A stretch of DNA of 64,000 nucleotides, from positions 1,894,501-1,958,500 of the forward strand of contig NZ_CP016808.1 of assembly GCF_002741035.1 (NCBI RefSeq). Reading direction: 5' to 3'. The notes under the pieces were generated by a model, which did no database searches, was not told the origin of the DNA, and was given only the letters and a program-made list of their open reading frames with translations. The position numbers were made by a program, and so were the translations under genes. This document shows positions 635 to 51,374 of the stretch, in pieces. This DNA is from Paenibacillus sp. BIHB 4019. Its GTDB lineage: Bacteria; Bacillota; Bacilli; Paenibacillales; Paenibacillaceae. Every line of letters begins with the position of its first letter. The first letter of the stretch is position 1.

Positions 635-1200
635 TTCAAGCGTAAACGGCTTTAGCTACCTATGGTAGCAAAGCTCGTTTCGCGTAGAAATGTAAGCCTG
701 ATAATATGAGGTTCTCCTTATTATTCTTAGATTTCAAGCGTAAACGGCTTTAGCTACCTATGGCAGCAAAGCTCGTTTCGCGTAGAAATGTAAGCCTAAT
801 AATAAGAGGTTCTCCTTATTATCCTTAGATTTCAAGCGTAAACGGCTTTAGCTACCTATGGCAGCAAAGCTCGTTTCGCGTAGAAATGTAAGCCTAATAA
901 TAAGAGGTTCTCCTTATTATCCTTAGATTTCAAGCGTAAACGGCTTTAGCTACCTATGGCAGCAAAGCTCGTTTCGCGTAGAAATGTAAGCCTAATAATA
1001 AGAGGTTCTCCTTATTATCCTTAGATTTCAAGCGTAAACGGCTTTAGCTACCTATGGTAGCAAAGCTCGTTTCGCGTAGAAATGTAAGCCTGATAATAAG
1101 AGGTTCTCCTTATTATCCTTAGATTTCAAGCGTAAACAGCTTTAGCTACCTTCAGCATTAAAGCTCATTTCGCGTAAAAATAGAAACCGAGATTATATAT
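635..1200. repeat. Tandem array of a 98-bp two-hairpin repeat (5 near-identical units plus a degraded sixth)
   Basis: Units begin with TTCAAGCGTAAACGGC at 635, 733, 831, 929, 1027 and 1125, so the period is exactly 98 bp. Units 1-5 differ at only a few bases; unit 6 is diverged and fades near 1200. Each unit has an imperfect hairpin (AGCGTAAACGGCT against AGCTCGTTTCGCGT) and a second AT-rich hairpin (AAATGTAAG...CTTAGATTT). It is the tandem version of a repeat also found at 4731, 24638, 40560 and 51177. It fills the gap between the GH94 stop and the lacI start, so any read-through mRNA into lacI would carry it. Confidence 0.95.
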
Positions 1201-1339
1201 AAGCCTATTAAAGGCATTTAAACTTATAAACACTTATATTTTAAAATATTCCTGATTAATTAACTATATCATAACAGATTAAAGTTGCCTCGACTTATGT
1301 GCATACGGCGATCCGAAACGAATCGCCGTACACTGTTCC
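1201..1339. other. AT-rich spacer with a hairpin after GH94
   Basis: No gene is seen. A perfect 9-bp inverted repeat (TACGGCGAT at 1304-1312, ATCGCCGTA at 1322-1330) lies just past the GH94 stop. It is not followed by a T run on the minus strand, so it may be a weak or Rho-type 3' end or an mRNA stabiliser rather than a classical terminator. The remaining AT-rich part could hold a lacI promoter, but no convincing pair of hexamers stands out. Confidence 0.5.
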
Positions 1340-4300
1340 TTACATGAAAATGTCGATAATCGTTTTTTCGCCTGTTTGATGCTGCTTCACCAGCTGCGGA
1401 GAAATTTCCAAACCGCCCGCGCGATAACGATTGGAGCCGAATGCAGCTTCCAATTCATTACCATTTATTTTCACGCTTTTCACAGTCGCATCGCCATCAC
1501 CATTCAAATGGTAAACGAAGGTAATCGGAGCGCCCTGATATTCGAAATCGAATTGCAGGCCGTCCAACGACTGTGGCAGCACTGGATCAACGATCAGCTT
1601 ATTTTCCACTTGGCGGATACCAAGCACGTTTGCTATAAGCTGGTTCATATAAATCCCTGGTCCGCTGGAATAAATTCTCCATCCGCCTTTGACCGGAGCA
1701 GAGCCATCACGCAGCTGTGCAAAACGATCCTGCGCCTCATAACGCGTATTAAATTTGCCATCCGAGCTGCTGAAATAAGAATTGCTTTGGCGAAGCTCCG
1801 CATTAGGCACAGCATCCTTCAAACCAATCGGGTTGATGATTGTAAGCCCATTCCATGCTTCATCCACCTTGCCGAGCTTAGCCATTGCTTCTACATAGCG
1901 GATATGGGCATGTACATATTGCAGCCCTACCTCGCGGCCAAAGTTCGCCGCCTGCTCAGCGCGCTTGAAATGCGTGCTTACACCACCGGTATATTTCGCC
2001 GGACGGTTCATCAGCCGGACGCCATCCGGGCAGTAAAGCTCGCGCTTGATTAGCGCATAATGCGACTCGGCCTGTTCAGCTGTAAGCAGCTCAGCAATCA
2101 TGCTGCGGGTCATCGGAAGCAGGCGGTATTGAATGCCTGTTACCGCATCCGTTGGATGCAGCATCAGTTCCGCTTTATCTGGCTGCTCCATGTACAAGAA
2201 GCCAGGAATAACATCGGTTTGCAGCATATAACGGTTGAAATCTGCTTCAATGCCCGCACTCAATGCTCCGAGCTCTGCCGCCCACTCTTTATTGTGCGTT
2301 TGCATAGCCGCAGACAGATGTGTAAACACCTGGTACGTCAGCGCTACTGTCCAGCTGCTCACCATATACTGCTTAAGCTGGGCGTTGGCAGGCTGCAACG
2401 TGTCATCCCAATCGCCATCGCCGTAGGAGGACAAATGGGTGTCATGCAGAAAATGTCCCTTAATATAGGCGATTTCCTTCTGTGCATGTTCAAGCAGCGA
2501 TGCCGTATGCGGCGTGAAAGCAAAACCTTCTTTCGTCGTATAAGGGATCTGCTCCTCCAGCACGGAATAATCCTGTGTTGCAGTCAAATAGTCGCTCAGC
2601 ACCTTGAGCGGCCATACGATAATGTCGCCATGGCTTTCTTCCTGCTGTATATTCACGTAGTTGTCGAACATAAACCATTGCGGCCAATTGCCGTCTTCCT
2701 CATACTGATGGGAAAATACCGTCAGCAATATTTCGCGAACTGCGCCGTAATTTTGCATCGCCATAAAATATTCGGTCGGCCCTTGGCAAACATCCCGTGT
2801 ACCCCATGCAGCGCCGCCATATTGCTCCAGCCCGTGAGGTACCGAATAATGGACGAGCATATTGTGCGTGTACCACCATGCCAGCGTATTGAACTTGTCC
2901 ACTTCAGCGGTATTGCCGCCTTTTTGCGTCAGCTCAAACCCATTCATCACCCGCTTGTAAAAAGCACGGTAAGCCTGTGCCTGCACTTCTGCATCCTCTA
3001 CGCTAACGTTTGCCGCTGGAAGCTCTTCGCCTTGCAGCAAGCCCTGCACCGTAGCCGTCCATTCGCTGCTTGCGCCTAGCTCCAGAACGACTAGCGATGC
3101 GCCGCCAGACTTCATTCCCGTTACGAGCTTTTGCTCATCCGCAACGTTCATCTCCGCTCCATCCACACGCAGACGGTAGCGAAGCTTCGGATAGACACTT
3201 GCGCTCAGCGCCGCCGAATCGGCCGTAAATTCAAGCCACTCCTGATTTTTGTTCATTTGATATGGCAAAATATATTCATTATCATTCATCAACACTTGAT
3301 TCGTGACCAGATAACGGTACTTTCTTCCGCTTGTCGAGCGAACATGCATCCGGACTTCCGGCGTGTCTACGGTTGTATAGTTCGTAATGATGATGAGATC
3401 ATCGGTTGTTTTGTAATACCATTTTGCAAAGTTAAAGCCCATTTCAAACATCGACGGCATCGTAAGCAGACGATATACGCCATCCAGCTCTACATAAATG
3501 CGCTGTCCCGACGTTTTCGGCACATTCAGCGCGTTGCGGGCATTCGTCACCCATTTGTGGAAGGTCGTGTTGCCTACAACCAGCTGCGAGTTGAACAGGC
3601 CGTACATATACGAGGTCGTCGTCAGCACATTCGTGTGCAAGCGGTCATTGCCGCCTGTCATTAAAATATGGCCGTGCGGACGCTCAACGAGCAGTTCTTT
3701 TTCCTTTAATACAACATGCTCATGGGTCGCAGTGAAAAAAGAAAGCAGAGACTCTCCCGCATACTCCTCCTGCGAGCGTTCAGGGAACAAACCGTTAATC
3801 TCTTCCGCCGTCATCGATACGGTTTGTAAAGGGGAACCAATAGCCTCCGCTTGGCGTACCGGATTCGCATCTTGCGATGGTAAAGCAGGCGCAGCACACA
3901 CTTGCTCCCACGCTTGCTGCACTTCCGCCGAAAAGGCTAGCGACGTTACAGCCTCAGGATGATTGGCTTTAAACAAGCCGTAAAAAACAACATTCTGCTC
4001 GCCGTCCGCCTTAACAAGCGGTGTTTGCAAAGCTGTATAAGCAAATTCATATTGGTAAACTTCATTAGCCAATGATGGCTTGGTCAATGCTTCAGCAATA
4101 TCCGTTTCCTTATAGCTCAAGCCATAGAACTGGAAGCCGTCTGTCGAATAGCCAGCCGCCCCTGTCCATGCCCCTTGCTGCAAATAAGGGAAGCTGCCGC
4201 TTTGCGGCATATTTTGGCGGGAACAGACGACATAACCGCGCTGCCCGTCCTCAAATACGGAGTGGTCAATGTATTGCGATTGATAAGCTTCATTGCTGCG

Positions 4301-4708
4301 AACAGCAGCTTGGTCAGCCAGCCCGATATCTTGACCGTAGATCACATCCACCGTCTCGCCATTGCCAACTACATTTATATCCCAGAACCATACGCCTGCT
4401 TCCGACAGCAGGAAACGAACTTGGTAACGAACGCCCTCCGCTTCTCCTGCCCATACGACTTGATTCGCACTATAGGAGACACGGCTATTCGAACGCACAC
4501 CCAGCAGAGGAAAGGCCGAAATGCCCGATTCACGATGCAAACGCAAATATATATTATTTAGTGAACCGTCTACCGCATTGGATAGAAGCTGATTAATCAT
4601 CGTGTTGTTGTGGGTAATTTGATAAAGATCGCCGCTGCTGAGAAAGGTGAATGCTAATGGTCCGGCCTCTACTCGAAAGCTGCTTGTGCTTGCTGCTGTC
4701 ATGTTCAT
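1340..4708 (-). CDS. GH94 glycoside phosphorylase, probable 1,2-beta-oligoglucan phosphorylase
   Basis: A 1122-residue GH94 (former GT36) protein. The N-terminal half is beta-sandwich-like. The C-terminal (alpha/alpha)6 part carries YGGAAWGTRDVCQGP near residue 640 and GDGDWDDTLQPAN near residue 763, typical of the family's active site. There is no signal peptide, so it acts in the cytosol by phosphorolysis of imported beta-glucooligosaccharides. Cellobiose and chitobiose phosphorylases are about 800 residues; a length near 1100 fits the 1,2-beta-oligoglucan phosphorylase group, which in Listeria sits beside a similar transporter and LacI regulator. The substrate is therefore inferred from length and context. 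ATG at 4708 is chosen because AGGAAAG lies 6 nt upstream. The mRNA leader contains a copy of the dispersed repeat. Confidence 0.88.
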   Translation of the reverse strand: MNMTAASTSSFRVEAGPLAFTFLSSGDLYQITHNNTMINQLLSNAVDGSLNNIYLRLHRESGISAFPLLGVRSNSRVSYSANQVVWAGEAEGVRYQVRFLLSEAGVWFWDINVVGNGETVDVIYGQDIGLADQAAVRSNEAYQSQYIDHSVFEDGQRGYVVCSRQNMPQSGSFPYLQQGAWTGAAGYSTDGFQFYGLSYKETDIAEALTKPSLANEVYQYEFAYTALQTPLVKADGEQNVVFYGLFKANHPEAVTSLAFSAEVQQAWEQVCAAPALPSQDANPVRQAEAIGSPLQTVSMTAEEINGLFPERSQEEYAGESLLSFFTATHEHVVLKEKELLVERPHGHILMTGGNDRLHTNVLTTTSYMYGLFNSQLVVGNTTFHKWVTNARNALNVPKTSGQRIYVELDGVYRLLTMPSMFEMGFNFAKWYYKTTDDLIIITNYTTVDTPEVRMHVRSTSGRKYRYLVTNQVLMNDNEYILPYQMNKNQEWLEFTADSAALSASVYPKLRYRLRVDGAEMNVADEQKLVTGMKSGGASLVVLELGASSEWTATVQGLLQGEELPAANVSVEDAEVQAQAYRAFYKRVMNGFELTQKGGNTAEVDKFNTLAWWYTHNMLVHYSVPHGLEQYGGAAWGTRDVCQGPTEYFMAMQNYGAVREILLTVFSHQYEEDGNWPQWFMFDNYVNIQQEESHGDIIVWPLKVLSDYLTATQDYSVLEEQIPYTTKEGFAFTPHTASLLEHAQKEIAYIKGHFLHDTHLSSYGDGDWDDTLQPANAQLKQYMVSSWTVALTYQVFTHLSAAMQTHNKEWAAELGALSAGIEADFNRYMLQTDVIPGFLYMEQPDKAELMLHPTDAVTGIQYRLLPMTRSMIAELLTAEQAESHYALIKRELYCPDGVRLMNRPAKYTGGVSTHFKRAEQAANFGREVGLQYVHAHIRYVEAMAKLGKVDEAWNGLTIINPIGLKDAVPNAELRQSNSYFSSSDGKFNTRYEAQDRFAQLRDGSAPVKGGWRIYSSGPGIYMNQLIANVLGIRQVENKLIVDPVLPQSLDGLQFDFEYQGAPITFVYHLNGDGDATVKSVKINGNELEAAFGSNRYRAGGLEISPQLVKQHQTGEKTIIDIFM

Positions 4709-4730
4709 CACTCACTTTCCTGACTTTTTT

Positions 4731-4832
4731 AAAATATAAGAATTTATAAGTTTCACCCTTATAATCAGCTTATATTTCACCGCGAAACGGTAGCATTGCC
4801 GCCAGAAGACGGCTTCAGCCGTTTACGCTTGC
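4731..4832 (-). repeat. Dispersed two-hairpin repeat, copy in the GH94 5' leader
   Basis: Read on the minus strand this is a full copy of the repeat: AAGCGTAAACGGCTGAAGCC, then TGGCGGC, CGTTTCGCG, and a distal hairpin with arms AAATATAAG and CTTATATTT. It lies between the GH94 promoter (4956-4984) and the GH94 start codon, in sense orientation, ending about 10 nt before the ribosome-binding site. The distal hairpin is followed by TTTAAAAAAG, so it could shape leader structure or read-through. Confidence 0.85.
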
Positions 4833-4927
4833 TTATTCGTATACATAGGCTTTCATCAATAAACGCATAATAAACAGCTGATACCAGCGAAGTTGATGCA
4901 GATTGACGGCATTTGCCGAAATCAATC

Positions 4928-4937
4928 GAAACGTTTC
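4928..4937. promoter_or_regulatory. LacI-type operator 1 (GAAACGTTTC)
   Basis: A perfect 10-bp palindrome GAAACGTTTC, in the longer context TCGAAACGTTTCTAT. It lies just downstream of the GH94 promoter -10. This central-CG palindrome is the usual type bound by LacI/GalR regulators. Confidence 0.8.
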
Positions 4938-4955
4938 TATTTTACAACTAAAAGG

Positions 4956-4984
4956 ATTATAGAACGTTTTCAACTTCCCGTCAA
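4956..4984 (-). promoter_or_regulatory. SigA-type promoter of the GH94 gene
   Basis: On the minus strand TTGACG (4984-4979) is followed after exactly 17 bp by TATAAT (4961-4956). A LacI-type operator lies 18 bp downstream of the -10 (4928-4937) and another 30 bp upstream of the -35 (5015-5024). This arrangement fits repression, possibly by looping. Confidence 0.75.
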
Positions 4985-5014
4985 TTGCTCCCATTACCCG
5001 AATTTCATATAAGT

Positions 5015-5024
5015 GAAACGTTTC
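5015..5024. promoter_or_regulatory. LacI-type operator 2 (GAAACGTTTC)
   Basis: A second exact copy of GAAACGTTTC, lying between the two divergent promoters, 87 bp from operator 1 and 97 bp from operator 3. It is followed by TAT, as in the other copies. Confidence 0.8.
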
Positions 5025-5076
5025 TATTATCATTTTAACGCTCCAGAAGCAAATTTCAATAGCCAAAAAAAATGTG

Positions 5077-5105
5077 TTGAATACGATTACATTCTGTTTT
5101 ATAAT
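5077..5105 (+). promoter_or_regulatory. SigA-type promoter of the sugar transporter operon
   Basis: TTGAAT (5077-5082), a 17-bp spacer and a perfect TATAAT (5100-5105). Operator 3 (5112-5121) covers the expected transcription start, which explains how a LacI protein would repress the operon. The leader to the first gene is about 265 nt. Confidence 0.78.
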
Positions 5106-5111
5106 GACATC

Positions 5112-5121
5112 GAAACGTTTC
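5112..5121. promoter_or_regulatory. LacI-type operator 3 (GAAACGTTTC)
   Basis: An exact copy of GAAACGTTTC within TCGAAACGTTTCTAT, starting 7 bp downstream of the -10 hexamer of the transporter promoter, so occupancy would block initiation. Confidence 0.82.
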
Positions 5122-5167
5122 TATGGTCACTGGCATCTTCTGATGCAATCGCGTATAATCTAAAATC

Positions 5168-5177
5168 GAAACGTTTC
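5168..5177. promoter_or_regulatory. LacI-type operator 4 (GAAACGTTTC)
   Basis: The fourth exact copy, 56 bp downstream of operator 3 within the transporter leader, again in TCGAAACGTTTCTAT. It could be an auxiliary or roadblock site. Confidence 0.8.
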
Positions 5178-5377
5178 TATGTTTCATAAGGCTTATATAT
5201 TAAGGGGATCTTTTCAGGAATATGGGAGAGGAGGCATGTCGCTAAAGGCATATGTTCAGAAGGAAGCCAGCTGCTTTAATGCCAGCGCCATTGCATAAAC
5301 CGGCAACAATAGAGTCATCATTTACTTAAGCCACTGCATCTTAAAATTACAGCTTCTTAAAGAGAGGAAGATTTGGA

Positions 5378-18796: not shown

Positions 18797-19134
18797 GCCG
18801 TTATCCTGGACCTGCAGGCAAAGCCTCCATTTACTTCCCAGCCTATATGCCGACCTAGCACAAACTCTCTAAATCTTCATTTTACGCTATAATTCTTGCC
18901 TATTTACACGATTCTTAGCATATTGGCTGCCTATTTATCATATAAACTGACAAAATGTTTTTTTGCCCAAGAACGGCGATAGAACGAACATTTATTAGGC
19001 AAGAAACTTGTTTTAACGCAAAATTGAGCCAAAAGGTTACATGAGAATTATTAGAAATTCATTCATATAGAAGGAAATCACATGAAAAAACCGAATTATT
19101 AGCGCAGAGCAAAATTAAACCAGCCTAATTTTTT
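18797..19134. other. Gene-free leader region before the c-di-AMP riboswitch
   Basis: About 340 bp, AT-rich, with no convincing gene. It must hold the promoter for the riboswitch-controlled hydrolase. A six-codon frame with a ribosome-binding site (ATG at 19081) is present, but its meaning is doubtful. Confidence 0.4.
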
Positions 19135-19270
19135 ATACCGCAAAGGTATAGAAATACGGGGGAACCACTTTGGGTGAATTGATTTCGATGCTTGGACGGC
19201 TTGATTCAAGTGTCTTGGAAATCATAGGGAACCTTCACAACCGAACCCCACAGCTAACCTCGTCGGCACC
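19135..19270 (+). ncRNA. ydaO/yuaA-type c-di-AMP riboswitch
   Basis: The block upstream of the hydrolase holds the conserved ydaO/yuaA strings: GGGGAACCA followed by TTGGGTGAATTGATTTC, then CCGAACCCCACAGCTAACCTC and GTCGGCACCGGAAGGAG. The element directly abuts the ribosome-binding site of an NlpC/P60 gene, one of the classical targets of this class. c-di-AMP binding normally turns expression off. Exact boundaries are approximate. Confidence 0.88.
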
Positions 19271-19287
19271 GGAAGGAGTTTCAAATT

Positions 19288-19755
19288 TTGAAGAAGGTTA
19301 CTGCACTACTCGTTGGTCTTGTATTAATGCTTGCTTTCCAAGCAGGCAGCGTGTTCGCGAGTTCGAAGATGGATGGTGTTATCGCTGATCTGATCGGCAC
19401 ACCGTACCAAAGCGGCGGAACAACTACGAAAGGCTTCGACTGCTCCGGTTTTACGAAGTATGTTTTCGACAAAATGGGCATCGATCTTTCCCGTACTTCC
19501 CAAGCTCAATCGAACGATGGCAGTGAAGTGAAGAAGAGTGACCTGATCGCTGGCGATCTCGTATTCTTCAACACGAGCGGCAAAGGCATCTCCCACGTTG
19601 GTATTTACGTAGGCGATGGAAAGTTTGCACATGCTTCCTCGAGCAGAGGCGTTATTATTAGCAAACTTAGCGAGTCTTATTATGCTGATCGTTACGTATC
19701 AGCTACACGCGTTATGAGCCAAGACGCTTACGACAAGTACGCAAGCGAGCAATAG
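19288..19755 (+). CDS. Secreted NlpC/P60 peptidoglycan endopeptidase
   Basis: A 155-residue protein with a signal peptide (cleavage near VFAS, residue 25) and a single NlpC/P60 domain. The catalytic Cys52 is in GFDCSGF, His103 in ISHVGIY, and His115 in KFAHASS. It hydrolyses bonds in peptidoglycan stem peptides outside the cell. The start is TTG at 19288, with GGAAGGAG 9 nt upstream. The c-di-AMP riboswitch in its leader ties wall hydrolysis to osmotic and potassium homeostasis. It is short, with no SH3 or LysM targeting domain. Confidence 0.94.
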   Translation: MKKVTALLVGLVLMLAFQAGSVFASSKMDGVIADLIGTPYQSGGTTTKGFDCSGFTKYVFDKMGIDLSRTSQAQSNDGSEVKKSDLIAGDLVFFNTSGKGISHVGIYVGDGKFAHASSSRGVIISKLSESYYADRYVSATRVMSQDAYDKYASEQ

Positions 19756-24596: not shown

Positions 24597-24637
24597 TTCT
24601 CATCGCCCCACCTTTATCATGGCATGTGGTCCCGCCC

Positions 24638-24734
24638 GAGCGTAAACGGCTGTCGCCATCCTTTGGCAGCTCGGTGCGTTTCAGTTCGAGAAATATAGAG
24701 AAGGGCTGAAACCATCATATCCTTTCCTATATTC
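24638..24734 (+). repeat. Dispersed two-hairpin repeat, copy between mocR and ykuI-like genes
   Basis: A single plus-oriented copy: GAGCGTAAACGGCTGTCGCC, TTTGGCAGC, GCGTTTCAGTTCG, then AAATATAGAGAAGGG and CCTTTCCTATATT, which form the distal hairpin. It lies between the terminator of the ykuI-like gene and the start of the MocR gene, both minus-strand genes. Confidence 0.85.
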
Positions 24735-37151: not shown

Positions 37152-37228
37152 GCGCCCGTAGCTCAGCAGGATAGAGCGACAGTTTCCTAAACTGCAGGTC
37201 GTACGTTCGAATCGTATCGGGCGCGCCA
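37152..37228 (+). tRNA. tRNA-Arg, anticodon CCT
   Basis: A 77-nt cloverleaf: acceptor GCGCCCG/CGGGCGC, D stem GCTC/GAGC, anticodon loop TTCCTAA, T loop TTCGAAT, and an encoded CCA. The anticodon CCT reads AGG. There is one A-C mismatch at the top of the anticodon stem. A terminator follows. Confidence 0.95.
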
Positions 37229-40512: not shown

Positions 40513-40559
40513 ACAAATAGTGTCCTGACAAGCTAAAATGACTTCGTCGTCCTTCTGGG

Positions 40560-40649
40560 ACGTGCGAAGCCTTCCTCTGGCGGCTATGCTCACGTTTCGC
40601 GTAGACGTATAGAGAAAAGATGAGCAAACTCATATTCTTTCCTATACGT
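40560..40649 (+). repeat. Dispersed two-hairpin repeat, copy after the response regulator
   Basis: A plus-oriented copy: CGAAGCCTTCCTCTGGCGGC, CACGTTTCGCGTAG, then ACGTATAG and CTATACGT as the arms of the distal hairpin. Compared with AAATATAG/CTATATTT in the 51-kb copies, both arms have changed together, so pairing is kept. Confidence 0.82.
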
Positions 40650-40720: not shown

Positions 40721-43700
40721 TTACTGTATGACAAAGGTATACGTCTTTTGAGTACCGTCCTGTGCGGTTACGACCAACCGATCGGTGCTTTGCAAATTTC
40801 TTCCGTGCCCCAGCTCCGTATCGTCCTGATCATAAACTTTAAAGCTTCCATTTAGAGGTCCAATGATAGAAGTATTAAAGGTCATATAGTACGTATACAG
40901 AGGTACGGTAATTGTCCCTGCGGCCGGATCAATTTGAAAGCTGGGCGATAGTGATGTCAAGGTTACATCGTTGTACAAAATAAGATAATCCGCAGTAGAC
41001 GAGTCTTGAGCGGTAACACGTACGATCATACTAGATGTGATATCGGACATCTGATCGGCTACAGGTGCCAAGTCTTCATCCAAGACGTTGGCAGTAGCGT
41101 GCGGCGATACCGTTAACCCGCTCAACAACTGGACTACCGTCAAGGTGCTCGGAACCGAAAGGCTGCCCCCGCTCACATTCCCGTTCGTATTAGCCAGAAC
41201 TGACTTTGCGCTGCTCAGGGACGGCGTCGGCGTCGTTGTTGGAGACGGTGCCGCTGTTGGTGCCGGCGTCAGTGCTGGTGTCGGCGCTGGCGTCGGTGCC
41301 GATGTCGAACAACTCCACTGTGCAGAATAAGATACGTCTTGGGCCGGCATTGTGCTTGCCAGCGCAGGCGACCAACCTGTAAAAGTACAGCCTGACTTCG
41401 TTATGGTTGGCGCCTGTATGGCAGTGCCATACTGAACTCGATCTGTGGAGCCGCCTGTGCCCCCGTTTGCATTAAACGTCAAATTGTAGCTGTTGCGCTG
41501 ATAGTAACGCACGATCGTGAGGCTTCCATCGGCTGCAACCGTACTTGATGTCAATGCTTTACCGCTGCTGTCATAGGCTGTGCTATGGCCGTAGGTAAAA
41601 CCGGGATACTGCTGAATCGCTGGCGCCGCAAGCGCACCAGTTGTTCCTTGAAAGCTTCCCGTGCTGGCTTCAACATAAAGCAAAGTGTTTCCGAGACCTT
41701 GCAGCCTGTTTGAAACACCGTAAGGCGTATCGTTACGTACCTTCCAGATCGCTGTGTAAGTGGTGTCGTTTGATGGCATTGTGCCTGGAATTGCCTGTGA
41801 CCAGCCAGCAAAAGTATAGCCGGGTTTTGTAAAATTCGGCACTGCACTGCCCGGCACCTTCGAAAAGCTTCTGGCCGAATACACGATCGAGGTTCCGCCC
41901 GGATCGGCATAGAAGGTCATTTTGTGCTTGGTGGGCAAGTATTCGTAACTAAGTTTCAATAAGCCTGTTCCAAATATTGTGATTGTTTTTGTTGGCGGTG
42001 TATCATACCCTTCGATTGCTATCGGTACCGGCGAAACGGAAGCGCCGGCTGTACCAGAGAAGGTATTTTTTTTCTTGGTGGTGCGATTCCCTGTATCGGG
42101 ATCTACCGTAATGTAATCGACCAAGTAAGGTATATTGGTATGCGGTGTCCACTGCGCATAAAGCGTTATATTTCCTGCTGGCATGCTGTCAGGAATGATG
42201 TAAGGCTTCTTACCTTCAGGATCCAAAGCCCAACCCTTGAATGTATATCCCGTTCTTTTAGGCACGTTTGTTAATCTCTTTACTTTCTTGATTGATGTGT
42301 CGATTAGTTCAACAACCCGCCCGTAATCGTTCAACTGAAGTTCACCGCTTGGATCTTTACCGTCTACTAATGGGACATTAGGGTTCAAGGTTATAGAGTG
42401 GTATCCGCTCTTGTACCAGGTCAAATTAATATCGCGCGAGTAGGGAAGGGAATTTAAACCCGTCGTTGAGCCCTTCCACGTTACGGTCATCCTGCTGGTG
42501 AGAATTTCATCCGCAGCATTTGGCGATACGGTTACACGGGATGTATTAGGATCGTACTTAAATTTATCGTTATTAAAAGTGATTGTGTAATTCTGTGGAC
42601 GATCCTTACCTATTCTAATTTCGCCCGTTACCAAATTTAAATCGTTCAGTTTCAAGGCATCCTCAATCGATGGGAAAACTTTCTGCTCAAAGGCGACAAA
42701 GGAAGGCGCTGCTTCCTCTTCATAGGCAAAATCGATGAAATGACCATTTGGTGTGCCGGCTCTATAAAGCGGCCAGGACTCGCTATAAAAGAGGTCGGAA
42801 TAAGAGATTGACCCGCCGAGGAGCTGTGCCCCCCACTCTGCCTCCGCATACATACCGATCTCGAGCAACAGTGCACCTAATGTTTTTGTCTGCGCCGAAG
42901 ATGACTTTTCGTAATAGAAATACCCGTAGAGCTGGAGGTAGGCGCCTCCTTCTGCAGTGATTCCGACACTGTCCAATTCGATATGGAACAAGCCTGCCGC
43001 CAGTTCAAGACGAATTCCTGCCTTCAACCCCAGTGTTCCCATCACATAAAAATAGAAATTATAGGTGCCGTCGCCCGGCAAATCCACCGTGCTGAAAGAA
43101 GGCGATCCTTCGCTGAGTTTAAAGCTGGCTGTATATCTCTTCGCGGATTCATAACTGAAGCCGATGCCCAAGGCAATATTCGGATTCATGCTGATGACAA
43201 AGCTTCCTTTAAAGTTGATATGAAGGAGACCCAATAATAGGTGTTTATCGTATTCGAAGATTTCTTCTTCTACCAGGTCAACCCAATCCGTCTCGTTCTC
43301 CAGCATGGCTTGGTAGCTTTCCACCAACGTATCAGCGTTTACCTTGGCTGGAGCGGAAGGAGACTGCTTCAGAACCGCTTCCAGCTGCGCCTTAATGTCC
43401 ACTTTATTTTTGGCAGTATCCCAAATATTCGCGTAAGCGTCAAGCGGAGTATCCGCTGGCACGGTGCCGATCTGTGCAGACGCGTCAATGCTCGTAAACG
43501 TGAACGCGTCCAGGTTGGCGCTTGCTTGATAGTCCTTGGGATATGGGAGATCGAAAAGTCCCAGATCAATATATCCCCAAACCGTATTGCCGTTCACACC
43601 CACGCTTAAAGAGATTTCTTCCGTAAATGCAGAGCTCATATGGATAAGAATATCGTTGTCCGCGCCTGTCGAAACTTGAATATCGCTTGAAACGATGAGA

Positions 43701-45910
43701 TTCAGACGCAATCCACTCTTTCCCTGAAAATGGGATAGCTTCGATCCGATGTCTGCTGAAACTTGCAAGTTGTGCAGGGTAACGTCCGCGTTCTCTTCTC
43801 CCGGTGTCCCGGATAGTGCACGGACTTCTGGCTTTTTGTTTTTCGGCAAGGTCGATGAGGCGCTAGCTGCGAGCAATGTTTTGACGCTATCGGTTTGCAA
43901 AGCCGCGGTTGATAAATAGTTTGCAGCTTGATCGACAAATCCGCTTGCCAGCGCCTGCTGCTTGATTTGACCCTCCAAAGAAGCGATATCAGCTTGCGAC
44001 AACAGGTCGGCCACTTCAATCGTTTCCTGCTTATAGAAATCCAGGGCGTGAGTGATGTCATCTTGCGAAGCATCGGTATAAGCAATGACATAATGATTCC
44101 CTGAGCTCGAGACGGACGTCACTTTTCCGTATCCTGAAGAAGCTCCCGTACGCATATTGACGAGCGCGAGAAAGTCCCCGACTCTGGCAACGGTAGCGGC
44201 GTTAAGACCCATAGGCGCATATTTGGCTTCGGAATAATCCATCGATGCCGGAGCGACTGTGATGGAGTGGTTCGTACTGTCTCCGTCAGTGTCCGACGCA
44301 GGGTCGACCGGAAGCACGTTCGGTTTAAGCAGAACGTTCATTGGGTTTGCACTAGTGTAGGAATAGATATTCCCGTTGATTGCTGTGATTGCTATATAGG
44401 CGATATCGCCATCATCGGAAGTATCCAAAGTGCGCAGATCGGGACGAGTTCCTTCATAAACGGAGACGGTATCGCCCAATTTCAAGCTCGTATTTCCGTC
44501 ATATTGAAAGGTACCGCTGGCAACATTGGTCGAGTTCAGACTTGACCCGCCTCCAACATTTGCACTCATTACAGCGATTGAAGGAGAAGCAACAGATGCG
44601 CCATTCTGGCTCATCTGCGAGATATCGGAAAACTTCAAATAAATCATGTACGGATTTAGAGGCAGCTGCATGACCTCTTGTTTGGCAATACTAAAAATAT
44701 AATTTTTGGTCGTTGCGTCTTTGCCTGTAAACGCGAGTCTTGTATCCGTCAAAGTGATTTGATAGGTGCTGCCCTCTTCAAATGCACCGCTTTTTGCAGC
44801 TACAGTATAGTTGCCGTTCGAGCCAGTTACCGCAATTCCTGCAAAATTAGGATTGGACGGAGATTTGAATGTCATGCCGGCTTGAACGGCCGCCGTCGTC
44901 ATTTTACCTGTAGAATCTTTCACGGCCACCCTAAAGTTCGGTGCCTGATCCATGGCGTATGCATTCGGAGTAATGACTACAGCATCATCGGACGATGCAA
45001 TATAATTGGCATACAAGGTCATGTCGCTCTTAACGGTATCGTCATTCATGACTGGTTGCGTAAAAGCACGATCCTTATACCAGCCATTGAAAATGGAGCC
45101 TTGCTTGAATGCGAGCGGAAGCTGATTCAGCGATTCGCCCCGCTTTAGACTCAGGCTGTCGATCGATGAGCCGCCATTCGGATTAAAAGTAACCGTATAG
45201 GTTATACCGTTGCTAGCAATCGCGACTTTGTCCGTACGCATAAAAAGCGCGGCCGCTTCAGCACGTGTCGCCTTTGAATGCGGCTCAAAATTGCCGTTGG
45301 CATCTCCGGTAAACAAACCGGCCTGCCAAAGCTTTACCGCCGCATCAACCGCCCATGGAGAGATGGCGGATATGTCGTTGGGCGTAGATGCGCTGGCGTT
45401 TGTTTGATAAGGGACGCCATCGCTTTCAAAATACTTCAATGTCAACGTTGCCATCTGCTCTCTTGAAATAGCGGCGTCCGGCGAAAATCTGTTGCTGCCT
45501 GTTCCGCTTGTAATGCCGCGTTCAATTGCCCATTGCACATAAGGCGCATACCAATCGCCTGGCTGCACATCTGTAAATGCGGAAGTTTTATATTTACTTG
45601 CATCCACTTTGGCAATTCGCCCAAGTACAGTAACAAACATGGCACGACTCATGGTTGCATCAGGCGAAAAGCGATCGTTGCTTGTGCCGCTGAAGAGCCC
45701 ATTCTGCTTGACATACATGACCGCATCGTAGAACCAGGCCGAGGATGTCACGTCTTCAAACAAGCTTTGAGGCGTGGGCTGTGCAGCCGTTTGGTTTGCT
45801 GCCGCATATTGGACAGTAGTCGGTGAAGCGGCAGAAATCCCAGGAGGCATTAAGGTTACGAGTATACAAAATAATAGCAAACTACTTATTAGGCGTTTAT
45901 ACAAGTTCAA
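40721..45910 (-). CDS. Giant secreted SLH-domain protein with InlB-type repeats
   Basis: A 1729-residue surface protein. A signal peptide is followed by three SLH domains at residues 50-230 (FEDVTSSAWFYDAVMYVKQNG; FTDVQPGDWYAPYVQWAIERG), which bind secondary wall polymer. One InlB/Listeria-Bacteroides repeat follows near 240-310. The centre (500-1150) is a large unrecognised region, then come more InlB-type repeats near 1280, 1325, 1400 and 1475 (FNANGGTGG, GWSPAL). A Pro/Thr-rich linker lies near 1540-1565 and a cadherin-like beta-sandwich ends the protein. The start is TTG after GAGGAGGGG. A role in adhesion or surface coating is inferred. Confidence 0.9.
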   Translation of the reverse strand: MNLYKRLISSLLLFCILVTLMPPGISAASPTTVQYAAANQTAAQPTPQSLFEDVTSSAWFYDAVMYVKQNGLFSGTSNDRFSPDATMSRAMFVTVLGRIAKVDASKYKTSAFTDVQPGDWYAPYVQWAIERGITSGTGSNRFSPDAAISREQMATLTLKYFESDGVPYQTNASASTPNDISAISPWAVDAAVKLWQAGLFTGDANGNFEPHSKATRAEAAALFMRTDKVAIASNGITYTVTFNPNGGSSIDSLSLKRGESLNQLPLAFKQGSIFNGWYKDRAFTQPVMNDDTVKSDMTLYANYIASSDDAVVITPNAYAMDQAPNFRVAVKDSTGKMTTAAVQAGMTFKSPSNPNFAGIAVTGSNGNYTVAAKSGAFEEGSTYQITLTDTRLAFTGKDATTKNYIFSIAKQEVMQLPLNPYMIYLKFSDISQMSQNGASVASPSIAVMSANVGGGSSLNSTNVASGTFQYDGNTSLKLGDTVSVYEGTRPDLRTLDTSDDGDIAYIAITAINGNIYSYTSANPMNVLLKPNVLPVDPASDTDGDSTNHSITVAPASMDYSEAKYAPMGLNAATVARVGDFLALVNMRTGASSGYGKVTSVSSSGNHYVIAYTDASQDDITHALDFYKQETIEVADLLSQADIASLEGQIKQQALASGFVDQAANYLSTAALQTDSVKTLLAASASSTLPKNKKPEVRALSGTPGEENADVTLHNLQVSADIGSKLSHFQGKSGLRLNLIVSSDIQVSTGADNDILIHMSSAFTEEISLSVGVNGNTVWGYIDLGLFDLPYPKDYQASANLDAFTFTSIDASAQIGTVPADTPLDAYANIWDTAKNKVDIKAQLEAVLKQSPSAPAKVNADTLVESYQAMLENETDWVDLVEEEIFEYDKHLLLGLLHINFKGSFVISMNPNIALGIGFSYESAKRYTASFKLSEGSPSFSTVDLPGDGTYNFYFYVMGTLGLKAGIRLELAAGLFHIELDSVGITAEGGAYLQLYGYFYYEKSSSAQTKTLGALLLEIGMYAEAEWGAQLLGGSISYSDLFYSESWPLYRAGTPNGHFIDFAYEEEAAPSFVAFEQKVFPSIEDALKLNDLNLVTGEIRIGKDRPQNYTITFNNDKFKYDPNTSRVTVSPNAADEILTSRMTVTWKGSTTGLNSLPYSRDINLTWYKSGYHSITLNPNVPLVDGKDPSGELQLNDYGRVVELIDTSIKKVKRLTNVPKRTGYTFKGWALDPEGKKPYIIPDSMPAGNITLYAQWTPHTNIPYLVDYITVDPDTGNRTTKKKNTFSGTAGASVSPVPIAIEGYDTPPTKTITIFGTGLLKLSYEYLPTKHKMTFYADPGGTSIVYSARSFSKVPGSAVPNFTKPGYTFAGWSQAIPGTMPSNDTTYTAIWKVRNDTPYGVSNRLQGLGNTLLYVEASTGSFQGTTGALAAPAIQQYPGFTYGHSTAYDSSGKALTSSTVAADGSLTIVRYYQRNSYNLTFNANGGTGGSTDRVQYGTAIQAPTITKSGCTFTGWSPALASTMPAQDVSYSAQWSCSTSAPTPAPTPALTPAPTAAPSPTTTPTPSLSSAKSVLANTNGNVSGGSLSVPSTLTVVQLLSGLTVSPHATANVLDEDLAPVADQMSDITSSMIVRVTAQDSSTADYLILYNDVTLTSLSPSFQIDPAAGTITVPLYTYYMTFNTSIIGPLNGSFKVYDQDDTELGHGRNLQSTDRLVVTAQDGTQKTYTFVIQ

Positions 45911-46187: not shown

Positions 46188-46275
46188 AGATTCGATTGCG
46201 GTTGAAACTGAATCGGGACCCTTTTTACAAGCAGACTATTAAGGCAAATAAGGTGAATAGGTAAGATTATCTTAT

Positions 46276-46318
46276 AAAAACAAGAAGCCCTCCTCACCTA
46301 ATCGTTGAGGGGGCTTCT
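46276..46318 (-). terminator. Terminator of galK
   Basis: On the minus strand AGAAGCC-C-CCTCAA and TGAGGAGGGCTTCT form a stem, followed by TGTTTTTAT. Confidence 0.88.
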
Positions 46319-46368
46319 AAAAATCTATGCCTATCGGATCAGCAGCGGACTAGCTCCGCATTTTCATC

Positions 46369-47661
46369 TTACTTCCTATCTAACAGCTCATTCAGGTGTA
46401 CAGCCCCATGCTCACGCACATTCACGACCAGCACCGGTGTCTCCAGCATTCCGCTAATCCAGGACATATAGGCATCCGCATGCTCGTTAGGAATAATGGT
46501 CAAAATCACTCCAGCGAATCCTCCGCCATGAATGCGGCATGCGCCAGCGCCGATTTTTTTCAAATAGTTTTCGGTAAGGGACAGCGCAATTGCAATCTCC
46601 TGATGTTGAACAGCTCCGCTTTGATATACGTTCTGAAGCCACTTCCACGAAGAATTCCCCGAATCCGTAATGAGCGTCAAGAAATCATTGAACCTGTTCT
46701 CCTCAAGCGCCGATACCTGCTCATCCACACGACGGTTTTCCTCAAAGAAATGCAGGGCGCGCAGCACAGCCCGGTCTCCAGCCGCTGCTCTAACCGCCTC
46801 CAAATTAGTGTAAATATCCTCTGGCGACAAATCGCGACAGACCAATGCTCCTAGCGATTTGGCTACCGCATACATCTCATTAGGCACCGCGGCGTAATCC
46901 TCCGTTAAATCAGCATGGTTCCCGCCTGTATTTACAATGACCAAGGAGTAGCCATTTTTCTGAAAATCCCATTGAACTGGCTTGATAACAGGCTCCTTAG
47001 GCGTCTCAAAATCAATCGCGATTAAACCGCCATAGGCGCAGGCCATTTGGTCCAGCAGACCGGACGGCTTATTCCAGTAACGATTTTCAGCAGATTGGCC
47101 AATTTTAGACATGGCGACGGCATCGAGTGCCCCATCATTATAATAATGGTTTAAAATCGTACCGATTAGCATTTCAAAGGACGCGGACGAGCTGAGCCCC
47201 GACGCAGAAAACACATTGCTGGAAATATAAGCATTAAAGCCGCCCACCTGAAAACCGGCCTCAATAAACCCCGCAGCAATGCCGCGAACGAGCGATGTCG
47301 TACCATCATCCCCAGACTGCGGCTGTAAATCCTGAAGATTAATCACGTATTTCGTTGCATAGCCTTCCGAGAAAAAGGTAATCACGGGCTCGTCCACTTT
47401 CACCGCAGCGCCAATCGTATCCAGCGTAATGCTTCCGGCTAGAACCTTGCCGTGATTATGATCCGTATGATTGCCGCCAATCTCGCACCTGCCTGGAGAA
47501 CTAAACAAACCAGCCTCCTGCTCTCCAAAATGCGCCTGAAAATGTTCCATAAGCGACTGATACCGGCTAGTTTGCTCTTTGAGCTGCTGTTTTCCATACA
47601 TTTGGGCAAGCAGCGCTTGTCCTTCGTCTGTTTGCAGTCTTTTTAACATTTGATTACTCAT
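46369..47661 (-). CDS. galK: Galactokinase
   Basis: A 430-residue GHMP kinase. The galactokinase signature is RCEIGGNHTDHNHGKVL near residue 62. The ATP loop is ASGLSSSASFEMLIG near residue 155. The third motif is RIHGGGFAGVILTI near residue 380. It phosphorylates galactose to galactose-1-phosphate in the Leloir pathway. GGAGGAAATAAG precedes the ATG. galE and galT are not in the window. It is transcribed alone. Confidence 0.94.
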   Translation of the reverse strand: MSNQMLKRLQTDEGQALLAQMYGKQQLKEQTSRYQSLMEHFQAHFGEQEAGLFSSPGRCEIGGNHTDHNHGKVLAGSITLDTIGAAVKVDEPVITFFSEGYATKYVINLQDLQPQSGDDGTTSLVRGIAAGFIEAGFQVGGFNAYISSNVFSASGLSSSASFEMLIGTILNHYYNDGALDAVAMSKIGQSAENRYWNKPSGLLDQMACAYGGLIAIDFETPKEPVIKPVQWDFQKNGYSLVIVNTGGNHADLTEDYAAVPNEMYAVAKSLGALVCRDLSPEDIYTNLEAVRAAAGDRAVLRALHFFEENRRVDEQVSALEENRFNDFLTLITDSGNSSWKWLQNVYQSGAVQHQEIAIALSLTENYLKKIGAGACRIHGGGFAGVILTIIPNEHADAYMSWISGMLETPVLVVNVREHGAVHLNELLDRK

Positions 47662-47874
47662 CTTATTTCCTCCTATAGGTCGCTATTTATGTAATTATAC
47701 GCCGCCTGTCTGAAGTAGCACAATCTAGCGAGAGACTAGTTCATCCTCCCCAATTTAACTCCTATATAGGAATATTTCACTATTTTTTACAAATTCCTAT
47801 CACTATATCATAGGCTCGCATGCTAGAATATGGACGAACGTTAAGATTAATGATTCATGGGAGGAATGGAATTG

Positions 47875-50800
47875 ATGAAGCTTACACAACGGAAGTCATC
47901 CTTGTCACACAAATGGATCAAGTCGCTTATCGCTCTATCTGTCGCTATTCCGCTGCAAGCTGGTTTATGGGGCGGCACGACAGCGGTTCACGCTGAGGGC
48001 CCCGCTGATCCGGCCCCTTTTATCCAGCCTAAAGTCGTGAACGAAAACGCTGGCAAAAAGATTTTATTCGACAATACCCATGCCCAGACCGCTGGAGCAG
48101 CAGATTGGGTCATTGACGGCGGCTTCTCTGATTTCGGCGACGCACTCGCTAATGATGGCTATTATGTTCAAGAGCTTCGCAAAACAACCCCATTTACCTA
48201 CAATGACTTGAAAGATTACAGCGTATTCGTCATCGCCGAACCCAACATCCCTTTCAAAGCAACAGAACAAGCTGCTATGACGCAGTATGTAGAAGGCGGC
48301 GGCAGCATCTTCTTCGTTGGCGACCACTACAACGCCGATCGCAACAAAAACCGCTGGGACGGCTCCGAAGCGATCAACGGCTACCGCCGTGGTGCATGGA
48401 CAGATCCGGCAAAAGGCATGAGCGCTGAAGAGCGCAGCTCAGAGGCCATGCAAGGCGTAACCAGCTCAGACTGGCTGTCCGACCATTTCGGCGTTCGCTT
48501 TCGCTACAACGCGCTTGGCGACATAAGCGCTAATCAAATTGTACCGCAAGAGCAGGCCTTTGGCATCACCGCTGGCGTATCCGCTGTTGCGATGCATGCG
48601 GGCTCTACGCTTGCGATTACCGACCCGACCAAAGCCAAAGGCATCGTATATTTGCCGCAAACGAATCAAGCTTGGGGCAGCGCCGTAGACCAGGGCGTAT
48701 ACAACGGAGGCGGTGTCGCTGAAGGGCCTTATGTCGCCGTTTCCAAGCTGGGAGCAGGCAAGGCCGCTTTTATCGGGGATTCCTCTCCGGTTGAAGATGC
48801 TTCGCCAAAATATTTGCGCGAGGAAACCGGAGCGCGCAAAACGACCTACGATGGCTTCAAAGAGGAAGATGACGGCGTATTGCTCGTGAATTTGGTCAAT
48901 TGGCTCGCTGAGCAGGAAAGCTACACGAGTCTAACCGAGGTTGACGGGCTGCAATTGGACAGCGCTACGGCACTGCTGCCTTTTGAGGACCCTGCTGCTT
49001 CGACGGAGCCGCAGCCAGAACCCTGGTCCGCGCCAAGCGCAGGCTACAAATGGTACGACCGTTCTACGTTTAAGCCTGGCTCATACGGCGGCCCAACAAC
49101 GAGCGCCAATGCCGCTTACAGCTTCGTCAAGCAGGCGACGCTACCGAATGCGCAGGATTTTCAAATTCGCGTAGTCGCCGACAATTTGCCCGCCAATACG
49201 ACCGTATCAGGCTTTAGCGCCGGCATTTATTTGACCGGAGGCACACAGGTGGCCATGGTTCAAAATGAAAATGGCACTTGGCCGACTGCCTACGGCTACA
49301 GCTCGGCTTTTAGTGTCACATCGGACAGCAAAGGGCATGCCTTTAAAGATTTGACCGTCCGCATTAAATCCGGAACGTCTGGTGCAGCCAGCTTGCGCCT
49401 GCGCTTGAACGGAAGCAATCTGATTACGAACGCGGTAACCGTAGGCAATGTGCCGGCAGAGCCGCTTCCCGAAGAGGAAGGCCCGATCCCTGCTCTGGTC
49501 CCCATTGCAGAAGCTCGCAATAAGCCAGTCGGCTCGACCGTAACGGTTGAAGGAATCGTGACGACGGAGCCGGGCGCATTTGGCGGACAAGCTTTTTATT
49601 TGCAGGATGGCTCAGGCGGCCTTTATGTGTTCCAAAGCGCAAGCGGCTTCCATCAAGGCGACCGCATTAAAGTGACAGCCGCTACAGCTCTATACAACTC
49701 GGAGCTTGAATTGACCGATATTGTCGCTATCGAAAAAACCGGCACAGCGCCGCTGCCAGCCCCCCTTGCAGCAGACCGTGTCTCGGCCAACAACCAAGGG
49801 CAGCTTGTTCAGCTTTCAGAAGTAACGATTCAAAACCTGGTAAGTGCAACGCCCGCTGGTTCTTTCGAGTTTGATGCCGTCGATGCTGCCGGCACCAGCA
49901 ACCATATCCGCGTAGACACACGTACAGGCCTATCACTAGCTTCCTTCCCTTATGCCGAAGGCCAGCAGATTAGCATTACGGGTGTTGCCGCTATTTTCAG
50001 AGATGTCTTTCAATTGAAGCCGCGCGGGCTTAGCGATTTCACCCTGCAAGGCGATACAGCCGCTCCGGAGACAACGGCTTCCCTTTCCACTTCGCCTAAT
50101 GAGGCGGGATGGCTGAACCAAGACGTTTCCGTAACCTTGACAGCAACCGACGACACAAGCAGCACTTCCCCTCTTCGCACAGAATATGCCGTGAACGGGA
50201 GTGTCTACCAAGCCTATGAAGCACCATTTCTTATTAATGAAGAAGGAAGCTCCGTTATTTCTTTCTTCTCTACAGATGCCGCTGGCAACAAAGAAGCGGT
50301 GAAATCTGTAACGGTCAAGCTGGATAAATCAGCACCCAACGTCATTTTAACGCAGTCCGGAGGCGCGATAGCTGATGCTTCCGAGACGGATACGCTTATT
50401 TTTGCACTGAGCAGCTCGGATGCCTTGTCTGGTATTGCTAGCGAGCAGCTGCTGCTGGACGGCCAGCCTGTTAACAGCCCTTATTCCGTTAAAGGCTCTG
50501 AGCTTGGCCTTGGCGCTCATACCGTTGCTTACTCAGTAACAGATTTTGCCGGTAATCAAGCTTCCCTGCAAGCTTCTTTCCGCATTACCGGGCAGCCGCT
50601 TGCGGTTGGTGCTCCTGGAAAGCCTGTGCTTTCGAGCAACAACGGCTATGATACAGGCCTGCAAGACGGTGACTATACGATTTCCTTGAATATGTGGTGG
50701 GGCAACAATGGGACGAGCTACAAGCTTTATGAAAATGGCGAGCTGATTGACAGCCAGACGCTGCCTGATGTCTCCCCCTCTGCCCAATTCGCCCAAACCC

Positions 50801-51192
50801 ATGTAATCGGCAAGGCCAATGGAACGTACACGTATACCGCTGAGCTTACTAATGCCAAAGGCACGACCCGCAGCGAGGTTTTAACGGTACGCGTGACCGA
50901 TGCATCCCCGGGCAAGCCTGTACTGTCTCATGACAACTGGGACGGTGACGGCCAATACAGCATTACAATGAACATGTGGTGGGGAACGAACGGCACGGAA
51001 TATCGTTTGTACGAAAATAACGAGCTCATCGATACCCAATCTCTGAAAGCAGCAGCCCCTGCCGCCCAACATGCCGTAACAGTACTGTCTGGCCGCCAGC
51101 CTGGTGCATACGAATATCGGGCGGAGCTGGTCAATGCAGCAGGAGTAACAACAAGCGAAACGATCACCGTTCAAGCAAGCGTAAACGGCTGA
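47875..51192 (+). CDS. Secreted multidomain protein with ThuA/GATase-like N-domain, YhcR-type OB fold and two C-terminal repeats
   Basis: A 1105-residue secreted protein with a signal peptide (cleavage near VHAEG, residue 40). Residues 60-350 look like a glutamine-amidotransferase-type fold ([41 protein letters not shown]). Residues 540-720 are an OB-fold of the kind in Bacillus YhcR ([32 protein letters not shown]). Ig-like segments follow, then two repeats at about 910-1100 (PGKPVLS...[17 protein letters not shown]) shared with the lyase at 59-64 kb. No nuclease domain was identified. ATG at 47875 follows GGGAGG. The final residues SVNG and the stop codon come from a dispersed repeat. Confidence 0.8.
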
Positions 51193-51374
51193 AGCCGTCC
51201 TTTGGCGGCAAAGCTATCGTTTCGCGGAGAAATATAGAGAAAGAGGATAAATTAATCATATAATTTCCTATATTTCAAGGTGAAACGGCTTATCGTCTTC
51301 CTTGGCGACGCGGCGCGTTTCATTCCGAGAAATATAGAGATAGGATAACGAAAGGATAGCCTTTCCTATATTTT
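51177..51374 (+). repeat. Tandem pair of the dispersed two-hairpin repeat, overlapping a gene end
   Basis: Copy 1 (51177-51277) starts AAGCGTAAACGGCTGAAGCC and copy 2 (51278-51374) starts AAGGTGAAACGGCTTATCG. Both have the distal hairpin AAATATAGAGA...TTTCCTATATTT. The first 16 bp of copy 1 encode the last residues and TGA stop of the upstream gene. Confidence 0.9.

Follow-up and report, generated by a model that had tools for sequence, protein, structure and literature searches.

Two-Hairpin Repeat Units in the 64-kb Window

The window (the whole stretch of DNA that was analyzed, 64 kb in length) carries 11 units of a repeat that is about 98 bases long, runs from a CAAG start to a TATATTT end, and has no gene inside. 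Each unit has two hairpins that are dissimilar to each other, and each hairpin is drawn from several interchangeable types. The units were called from the bit scores of model R1 with an E value cutoff of 0.01. All 11 were located where a preliminary description of this DNA had placed them, now with coordinates from R1, and no additional unit was found in the window at this cutoff; the three remaining R1 rows are echoes of the tandem array on the opposite strand. The sequence CGTTTCGCG occurs 8 times, compared with 0.94 expected.

The tandem array lies on the plus strand and begins with a unit at 637–734 (64.0 bits), whose hairpin 1 is of type A and whose hairpin 2 is classed as type II. It continues at 735–832, 833–930, and 931–1028 (65.1 bits each) and at 1029–1126 (66.2 bits), and ends in a divergent unit with a different hairpin 2 at 1127–1241 (30.5 bits, E = 0.0027). 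A lone unit of types A and II is found on the minus strand at 4732–4831 (85.2 bits), directly upstream of the open reading frame at 1340–4711. At its 3′-end there is a target-like A-run on the minus strand (4725–4730, T6 on the plus strand), assigned from the sequence and the target profile. The lone plus-strand unit at 24637–24734 (66.0 bits) is a hybrid with hairpin 2 of type I; the 5′ half of its hairpin 1 is A-like and the 3′ half is B-like, and the orthologue in the relative G010 is A-like throughout hairpin 1. At 40529–40649, also on the plus strand (58.9 bits), a C-like 5′ part is fused to an A-like unit with the hairpin 2 arms ACGTATAG/CTATACGT. The extra hairpin part is absent from the G010 orthologue, which is 22 bases shorter there. 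The last two units form a plus-strand tandem pair, the first of types A and I at 51176–51275 (106 bits) and the second of types B and I at 51276–51373 (61.4 bits), followed on the 3′ side by a tract of six A residues at 51376–51381, where the empty G010 site carries GAAAAATAG. This pair overlaps the end of the open reading frame at 47857–51192 and provides its stop codon. The earlier statement that all copies are intergenic therefore holds for most of them and fails for this pair.

In the cross-genus alignment A6, all 30 rows begin with CAAG and finish with ATATT or ATCTT plus T or C. Terminal inverted repeats are absent, the CAAG and TATATTT ends not being inverted copies of one another. Six units were folded on both strands, with z scores of −3.3 to −5.0 for the element strand and −1.9 to −4.2 for the other strand. 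Hairpin 1 of types A and B contains a standing T·G pair. A known RNA or riboswitch was rejected as the identity of the units, since no Rfam family was found over them in the window at gathering scores or in 51100–51500 at an E value of 1, in agreement with the initial impression that they are unlike known riboswitches and terminators. The tandem junction was also considered as an Xer dif-like site, and this was dropped because the spacing differs.

Copy Number, A-Run Target, and Replication Polarity

The 7.25-Mb genome (G000) was surveyed through a 2.0-Mb sample of 100 regions, in which 92 units were found at 70 sites. Judged with a simple gene caller, five of the 70 sites lie more than half inside a predicted gene. 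The 79 of 92 units with at least 85 aligned bases reach no more than 92.9% identity to their closest copy at a different site (median 87.8%), and thus movement in G000 is not recent. Matches were obtained in 31 of 36 sampled congeners and, across the order, in 28 of 198 genomes with G000 counted; under stricter filters, the other five congeners gave no match at an E value of 0.001, and some others gave few. No match to the 51-kb pair was found in the plasmid and phage collections. The family is large and mobile, and its copies are scattered over chromosomes of Paenibacillus and its relatives. The proposal of a dispersed, structured, and probably non-autonomous element, for which a genome search without further copies was named as a refutation, is borne out by these many copies in Paenibacillus genomes.

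The target was analyzed by scoring tracts of five or more A residues within the first 12 nucleotides flanking the element at the 70 sampled sites. Such a tract was found on the 3′ side at 42 sites and on the 5′ side at 1, compared with 140 of 5000 random positions; the remaining 28 sites have none in the first 12 nucleotides. The target takes the form of a pyrimidine followed by the A-run (YAAAAAA), and a tract of at least four A residues lies beside 14 of 20 copies from other genera and families. A hairpin was found beyond the A-run for 26 of 70 elements versus 9 of 300 random positions. The A-run largely explains this excess, because 751 of 1698 intergenic A-runs are positive in the same lenient test, and a stricter test, which also required a T-run behind the hairpin, showed no excess (10 of 70 versus 22 of 200). 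Terminators were thus rejected as a separate target preference. The location of copies near gene ends or leaders, emphasized previously, is largely a consequence of A-run targeting.

The unit is oriented against the leading strand at 59 of the 70 sampled sites, whereas the supply of A-runs predicts 37.6. The same orientation was found at 99 of 121 sites in the top-150 list and at 112 of 135 sites pooled from four relatives (74 of 88 in G010, 19 of 23 in G011, 14 of 18 in G032, and 5 of 6 in G013); taken alone, G013 is not significant (p = 0.22). All six sites between two lagging-strand genes are oriented against the leading strand. The bias is weak at sites between divergent genes, with 11 against and 6 with the leading strand, and in comparison with A-run supply 9 of 14 such sites are against when a fraction of 0.49 is predicted (p = 0.19). 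The bias of type II copies (24:9) is weaker than that of type I copies (27:2). We have thus shown that the polarity exceeds what A-run supply or gene direction explains.

Filled and Empty Sites and Changes in the Hairpins

The two cleanest filled and empty pairs are L229:4935, where G010 has the unit and G000 the empty site, and L060:1718, where G000 has the unit and G010 the empty site. In these pairs the unit lies directly 5′ of an A-run that is already present in the empty site, and both ends are precise. No target site duplication was found in either pair or at 51 kb. Locus L061:11385 likewise carries the unit in G000 and is empty in G010; about ten bases differ at its left side. L243:12935 and L232:6249 offer no clean empty site; the other genome has a different sequence at each. 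A counterpart of the 51-kb pair is missing in all four relatives (G010, G061, G032, and G007), and the 4.7-kb unit is present in G010, not in G061, and as a C-type remnant in G032. As read from these end states rather than from observed events, insertion is strand-specific, replication-polarized, and free of duplication.

Orthologous copies also differ between relatives. The array at 637 has six units here, four in G010, three in G061, and two in G032. Among nine orthologous pairs, four contain 24–39 gapped positions inside the element, and several copies are broken. At the orthologous site L120:7793 the modules differ between genomes, which is also compatible with local recombination.

The quoted differences in hairpin arms between loci are correct, and arms are replaced yet still pair between subfamilies, between genera, and at one orthologous array. 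The preliminary description had taken such paired changes as selection for structure. Counts of double changes within subfamilies were compared with 500 shuffles, and this reading is supported for hairpin 2 of type I, with 15 double changes versus 5.4 in the shuffles (reached by 0 of 500). It does not extend to hairpin 1, in which types A and B gave 1 versus 1.4 with no excess in either, nor clearly to hairpin 2 of type II (5 versus 3.5, 125 of 500), where the paired share was nevertheless above all 500 shuffles. For the 25 model units there were 6 double-change pairs versus 3.4 in the shuffles (37 of 500), 12 double-change cells versus 4.5, and a score of 0.088 versus 0.069 (0 of 500 for each of the latter two). 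The cross-genus alignment A6 contains almost no covariation (13 pairs, 1 with a double change, term +0.18). Stem registers shift between lineages, and therefore cross-genus pairing rests on single-sequence folds. Divergence was lower at paired than at unpaired positions (0.076/0.191, 0.082/0.152, 0.098/0.254, and 0.120/0.188). Outside the standing T·G columns, departures from pairing comprise 79 G–U and 84 A–C; the two are about equal, so the new changes indicate no RNA strand, and selection on an RNA strand was rejected.

Candidate Mobilizers and Origin of the Family

The units are probably copies of a small non-autonomous, replication-coupled mobile DNA element that depends on a putative trans-acting enzyme. 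Insertion would take place at the replication fork, most likely into a T-run that is single-stranded in the lagging-strand template, and the two hairpins may be the signal recognized by the enzyme. A mobilizer was sought in G000 through four domains, and none was found: Y1 (PF01797), RVT_1 (PF00078), the IS110 domain (PF01548), and the TnpB domain (PF07282). The mover would therefore be an enzyme outside these four groups, a host enzyme, or one that has been lost. An autonomous parent was sought by fuzzy matching of separated hairpins across the 100 sampled regions, and none was found in this 2.0-Mb sample. The search gave 53 stretches outside the units already known, and nearly all of them resemble chance AT-rich matches. 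Three appear genuine: L061:3804 is a C-type unit, L120:8153 is of B type with a shortened hairpin 2, and L073:19069 is hairpin 2 alone.

Spread of IS200/IS605-derived relics by a Y1 transposase (IS200/IS605 or RAYT) that acted on folded single-stranded DNA and has since been lost from this lineage is an unlikely explanation. The hairpins, the T-run target, the replication polarity, and the lack of a visible target duplication fit that mechanism, and IS608 and ISDra2 are reported in PMC6006769 to target the lagging-strand template. PF01797 was found in 8 of 60 genomes searched, with Y1 genes in G010 and three other congeners, but there are none in G000 or in the high-copy genomes G011, G012, G016, G022, G026, and G032. 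At 10 Y1 loci, each trimmed to no more than about 3 kb, motif scans detected no element ends at the genes, and nine loci had no R1 match at an E value of 1; L163 had one match beside the gene (E = 0.014). A single Y1 enzyme would be expected to recognize hairpins that resemble each other, and the dissimilarity of the two element hairpins is against this. Somewhat more doubtful is RNA-templated insertion, in which a plus-strand transcript of the element and A-run anneals to the 3′-end of a T-run at the fork and is copied by a reverse transcriptase, as in target-primed copying. The confinement of the A-run preference to the 3′ side and the T·G pair of hairpin 1 are in its favor, as are a target and strand preference resembling those of the bacterial-C group II introns described in PMC8919778. 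RVT_1 is, however, also absent from the high-copy genomes G026, G022, and G014, 5′-truncated copies appear to be rare (the lone hairpin 2 at L073:19069 is the one in the sample), the cleanest pairs have a precise end on either side, and the new changes have no G–U excess.

Two further explanations place the units under selection where they stand. It is very improbable that they are functional RNA elements, such as leaders, 3′-ends, or processing sites; the stable two-hairpin folds, the lower divergence of paired positions, and the double-change excess of hairpin 2 type I would fit, but orientation tracks replication more than genes, sister species have empty sites, several orthologous copies have lost parts, and G–U and A–C departures are equal. 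We consider least probable of all a role as chromosomal polarity or replication sites with selected orientation, such as fork-reading or single-strand initiation signals. The replichore-wide polarity in G000 and its relatives suits such a role, and it is opposed by the congeners with few or no matches, by the association of copies with A-runs, and by the broken copies.

The family resembles REP elements with RAYTs (the GTAG and CGTC superfamilies, and REPINs), which are described in PMC3733652 as short, palindromic, high-copy, mostly intergenic, and suspected to be miniature transposons; the CGTC REPs lack a dedicated transposase, and the words Paenibacillus and Firmicutes are absent from the main text of that paper. 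Unlike REPs, the unit is an asymmetric 98-base two-hairpin sequence with a CAAG start and direct tandem arrays, no unpaired GTAG or CGTC tag at an end, and no resident Y1 gene. It shares hairpins, replication polarity, and the lack of visible target duplication with IS200/IS605-derived palindromic elements, and differs from them in the missing Y1 TnpA in G000, ends not shared at the 10 Y1 loci, dissimilar hairpins, and no autonomous copy in the sample. Insertion at T-run targets behind terminators and a strong lagging-strand distribution are features shared with bacterial-C group II introns (PMC8919778), but G000 has no reverse transcriptase gene, and at gathering scores the window gave no match to an Rfam intron. 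The lack of terminal inverted repeats and target site duplication separates the family from a classical MITE, and the lack of a resident enzyme separates it from an IS110- or TnpB-linked element. Bacillus cereus bcr repeats, pneumococcal BOX and RUP, and mycobacterial MIRU are also dispersed and mostly intergenic; they differ in their described units and targets. A tentative and rather unlikely extension is that the family represents a new class of fork-coupled mobile element with no dedicated resident transposase, in which a 98-base two-hairpin DNA or RNA copy is placed beside YAAAAAA on a fixed fork strand, either by enzymes of host replication or repair or by an order-wide enzyme family yet to be described.

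Small palindromic repeats are widespread in bacteria. Three handles come together in this family: its ends are well defined, it targets Y plus an A-run and leaves no visible duplication, and its replication-strand bias persists when gene direction and target supply are controlled for. Its abundance in a genome without the four candidate mobilizer domains makes the search for the mover testable. The family also alters genes, as seen at the open reading frame that precedes the 51-kb pair.

Units, modules and copy number

All of the repeat units named in the preliminary description were found in the window, and a search with R1, the covariance model of the unit, returned the same ones as eleven non-overlapping matches at an E value of 0.01. 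R1 was trained on 25 units, all of them from the genome of Paenibacillus sp. BIHB 4019 (G000; 7,246,671 bases in one contig), and three additional R1 matches in the window are opposite-strand echoes of the array. The window spans bases 1,894,501-1,958,500 of that contig. The unit is about 98 bases long, with a 5'-terminal CAAG and a 3'-terminal TATATTT, and the junction between tandem units is TATATTT/CAAG. Hairpin 1 occurs as type A (GCGTAAACG..CGTTTCGC), type B (GGTGAAACG..CGTTTCATTCC) or type C (CAAGCAAAAACGACTTCGTCG..), and hairpin 2 as type I (AAATATAGAGAAAGG..CTTTCCTATATTT) or type II (AAATATAAGC..CTTATATTT).

The R1 search of G000 gave at least 150 matches. One hundred evenly spaced 20-kb stretches of this genome (2.0 Mb in total) contained 118 R1 matches at an E value of 0.1; with overlaps removed, these amount to 92 units distributed over 70 sites, where a site holds one unit or an array (60 single, 5 double, 4 of four units and 1 of six). 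A motif classifier assigned the 92 units to module classes BI (28), AII (26), AI (13), BII (12) and CI (3), with one or both modules unclassified in 10. Some arrays combine different modules, and one orthologous site carries type I in G000 (L120:7793) and type II in the relative G010 (L229:11056). At L061:3804-3854, a C-type hairpin 1 precedes a variant of hairpin 2 whose arms are GAATTCTAAG/CTTAGAATTC; this copy is absent from the R1 matches.

Under stricter filters that lose weak matches, R1 matched 35 of 60 genomes at an E value of 0.001, including G000 and 31 of the 36 other genomes of the genus, and 28 of 198 genomes of the order (G000 included; 8 of 43 genera) at 1e-5. Among eighty named loci surrounding homologues of the protein of ORF 1340-4711, units were found in P. 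algorifonticola only. A copy in another genus (L338:151-285) has about 39 additional bases in the hairpin 1 loop that could form a hairpin of their own. No description of this repeat family was found among the open-licence papers listed, a minority of those that matched.

The window also contains a c-di-AMP riboswitch (ydaO/yuaA leader; 19112-19283, 60.2 bits) directly upstream of the ORF at 19288, a plus-strand tRNA gene (37152-37225), and 12/24-base tandem repeats (41228-41307) inside the long ORF 40721-45910 (minus strand).

Filled sites, empty sites and the target

The cleanest filled and empty pairs are L229:4935 and L060:1718. The former is TTTTC/CAAGG...TATATTT/TAAAAAAAC in G010 and TTTTTTC/TGAAAAAGC when empty in G000; the latter is TTTTTTCA/CAAGCG...TATATTT/TAAAAAATG in G000 and TTTTTCA/CAAAAAATG when empty in G010. 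At L061:11385, G000 carries a unit; the G010 site is empty and has the A-run, and about ten bases on the left side differ. The relatives G010, G061, G032 and G007 share the left flank of the 51-kb site and have no unit behind it; the sequence there is GAAAAATAG in G010 and ACAAAATAG in G032, and the right flank is recognisable in these two and partly in G007. No target duplication was seen at any of these four sites. Less clean are L243:12935 and L232:6249, where different sequence is in place in the other genome, and L140:11513, where G010 keeps a 3' remnant. The 0.6-kb array has six units in G000, four in G010, three in G061 (91% DNA identity) and two in G032. The filled and empty pairs indicate that the unit is mobile.

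The 51-kb insertion substitutes the final codons and stop of ORF 47857-51192 (window 51172-51192). The reading frame ends in V-Q-A-S-V-N-G-stop inside the element, and in V-H-V-E-K-stop in G010.

Across the 70 sites, the heptamer directly 3' of the unit approaches YAAAAAA, and the frequency of A in positions 2-7 is 67-89%. A run of five or more A within the first 12 nt was found on the 3' side of 42 of 70 sites, on the 5' side of one, and in 140 of 5000 random intergenic 12-mers. For 20 copies found in other genera and families, the 3' side has A4+ in 14 and A5+ in 10, and the 5' side has A5+ or T5+ in one. The occurrence of terminators near units is largely due to this A-run target, since 751 of 1698 intergenic A-runs have a hairpin behind them; 26 of the 70 elements pass the same lenient test.

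Pairing and covariation

With one unit taken per site, divergence at paired and unpaired positions was 0.076 and 0.191, 0.082 and 0.152, 0.098 and 0.254, and 0.120 and 0.188 in the four module classes, paired positions being lower in all. The paired share exceeded all 500 shuffles for hairpin-2 types I and II only. Type I has 15 double compensating changes versus 5.4 in shuffles (reached in 0 of 500), and type II has 5 versus 3.5 (125 of 500), no clear excess. Hairpin 1 types A and B show no excess (1 each versus 1.4). When standing T.G columns are set aside, departures to G-U and to A-C are equally common (79 versus 84).

The base of hairpin 1 varies between lineages and, in single-sequence folds, is predicted to remain paired. 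In the first unit of the orthologous 0.6-kb array, G061 and G032 have TTCCAT/ATGGAA as inner arms and G000 has GCTACC/GGTAGC. Besides selection, hairpin-templated repair may be a source of such whole-arm swaps. Elements also break in place, with 24-39 gapped positions inside the element in 4 of 9 orthologous pairs; at 40.5 kb, the G000 copy is the longer of the pair.

Orientation and a candidate mechanism

The dnaA gene of G000 maps to the minus strand at 2.13 Mb, and the GC skew changes sign at this position and again near 5.70 Mb. The plus strand of the unit is opposed to the leading strand at 59 of the 70 sampled sites (p 4e-9) and at 99 of the 121 sites from the best 150 R1 matches. Among the 150 matches listed for the relatives out of a longer set, none of which is from G036, and with the terminus placed at half the genome length, the opposed sites number 74 of 88 in G010, 19 of 23 in G011, 14 of 18 in G032 and 5 of 6 in G013 (p 0.22). 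The bias is stronger for type I (27:2) than for type II (24:9) when the 3'-most unit of each site is counted (Fisher p 0.048).

Gene direction was tested as the cause of this orientation because 78% of called genes are on the leading strand. Outside leading/leading gene pairs, 26 sites are opposed and 6 are not (p 0.0005; 90 of 92 sites classified), the opposed and co-oriented counts being 9:0 in convergent, 6:0 in both-lagging and 11:6 in divergent contexts. The supply of A-runs in element-free intergenic regions predicts 37.6 opposed sites of 70, and the 59 seen were not attained in any of 100,000 simulations; for divergent regions alone, the bias relative to this supply was not significant (9 of 14, p 0.19).

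Whole-genome Pfam searches of G000 for four domains of candidate mobilisers, Y1_Tnp, RVT_1, DEDD_Tnp_IS110 and Cas12f1-like_TNB, gave zero matches. IS110 is present in 42 of 51 genomes of the genus, yet none was found in the 7.2-Mb G000. The best identity of a unit to a copy at another site in G000 is at most 92.9% (79 of 92 units with an alignment of at least 85 bases), and therefore the mover may have been lost from this genome. The polarity, the target and the absence of duplication are the basis for a proposed mechanism in which the unit would insert into single-stranded T-runs on the lagging-strand template.
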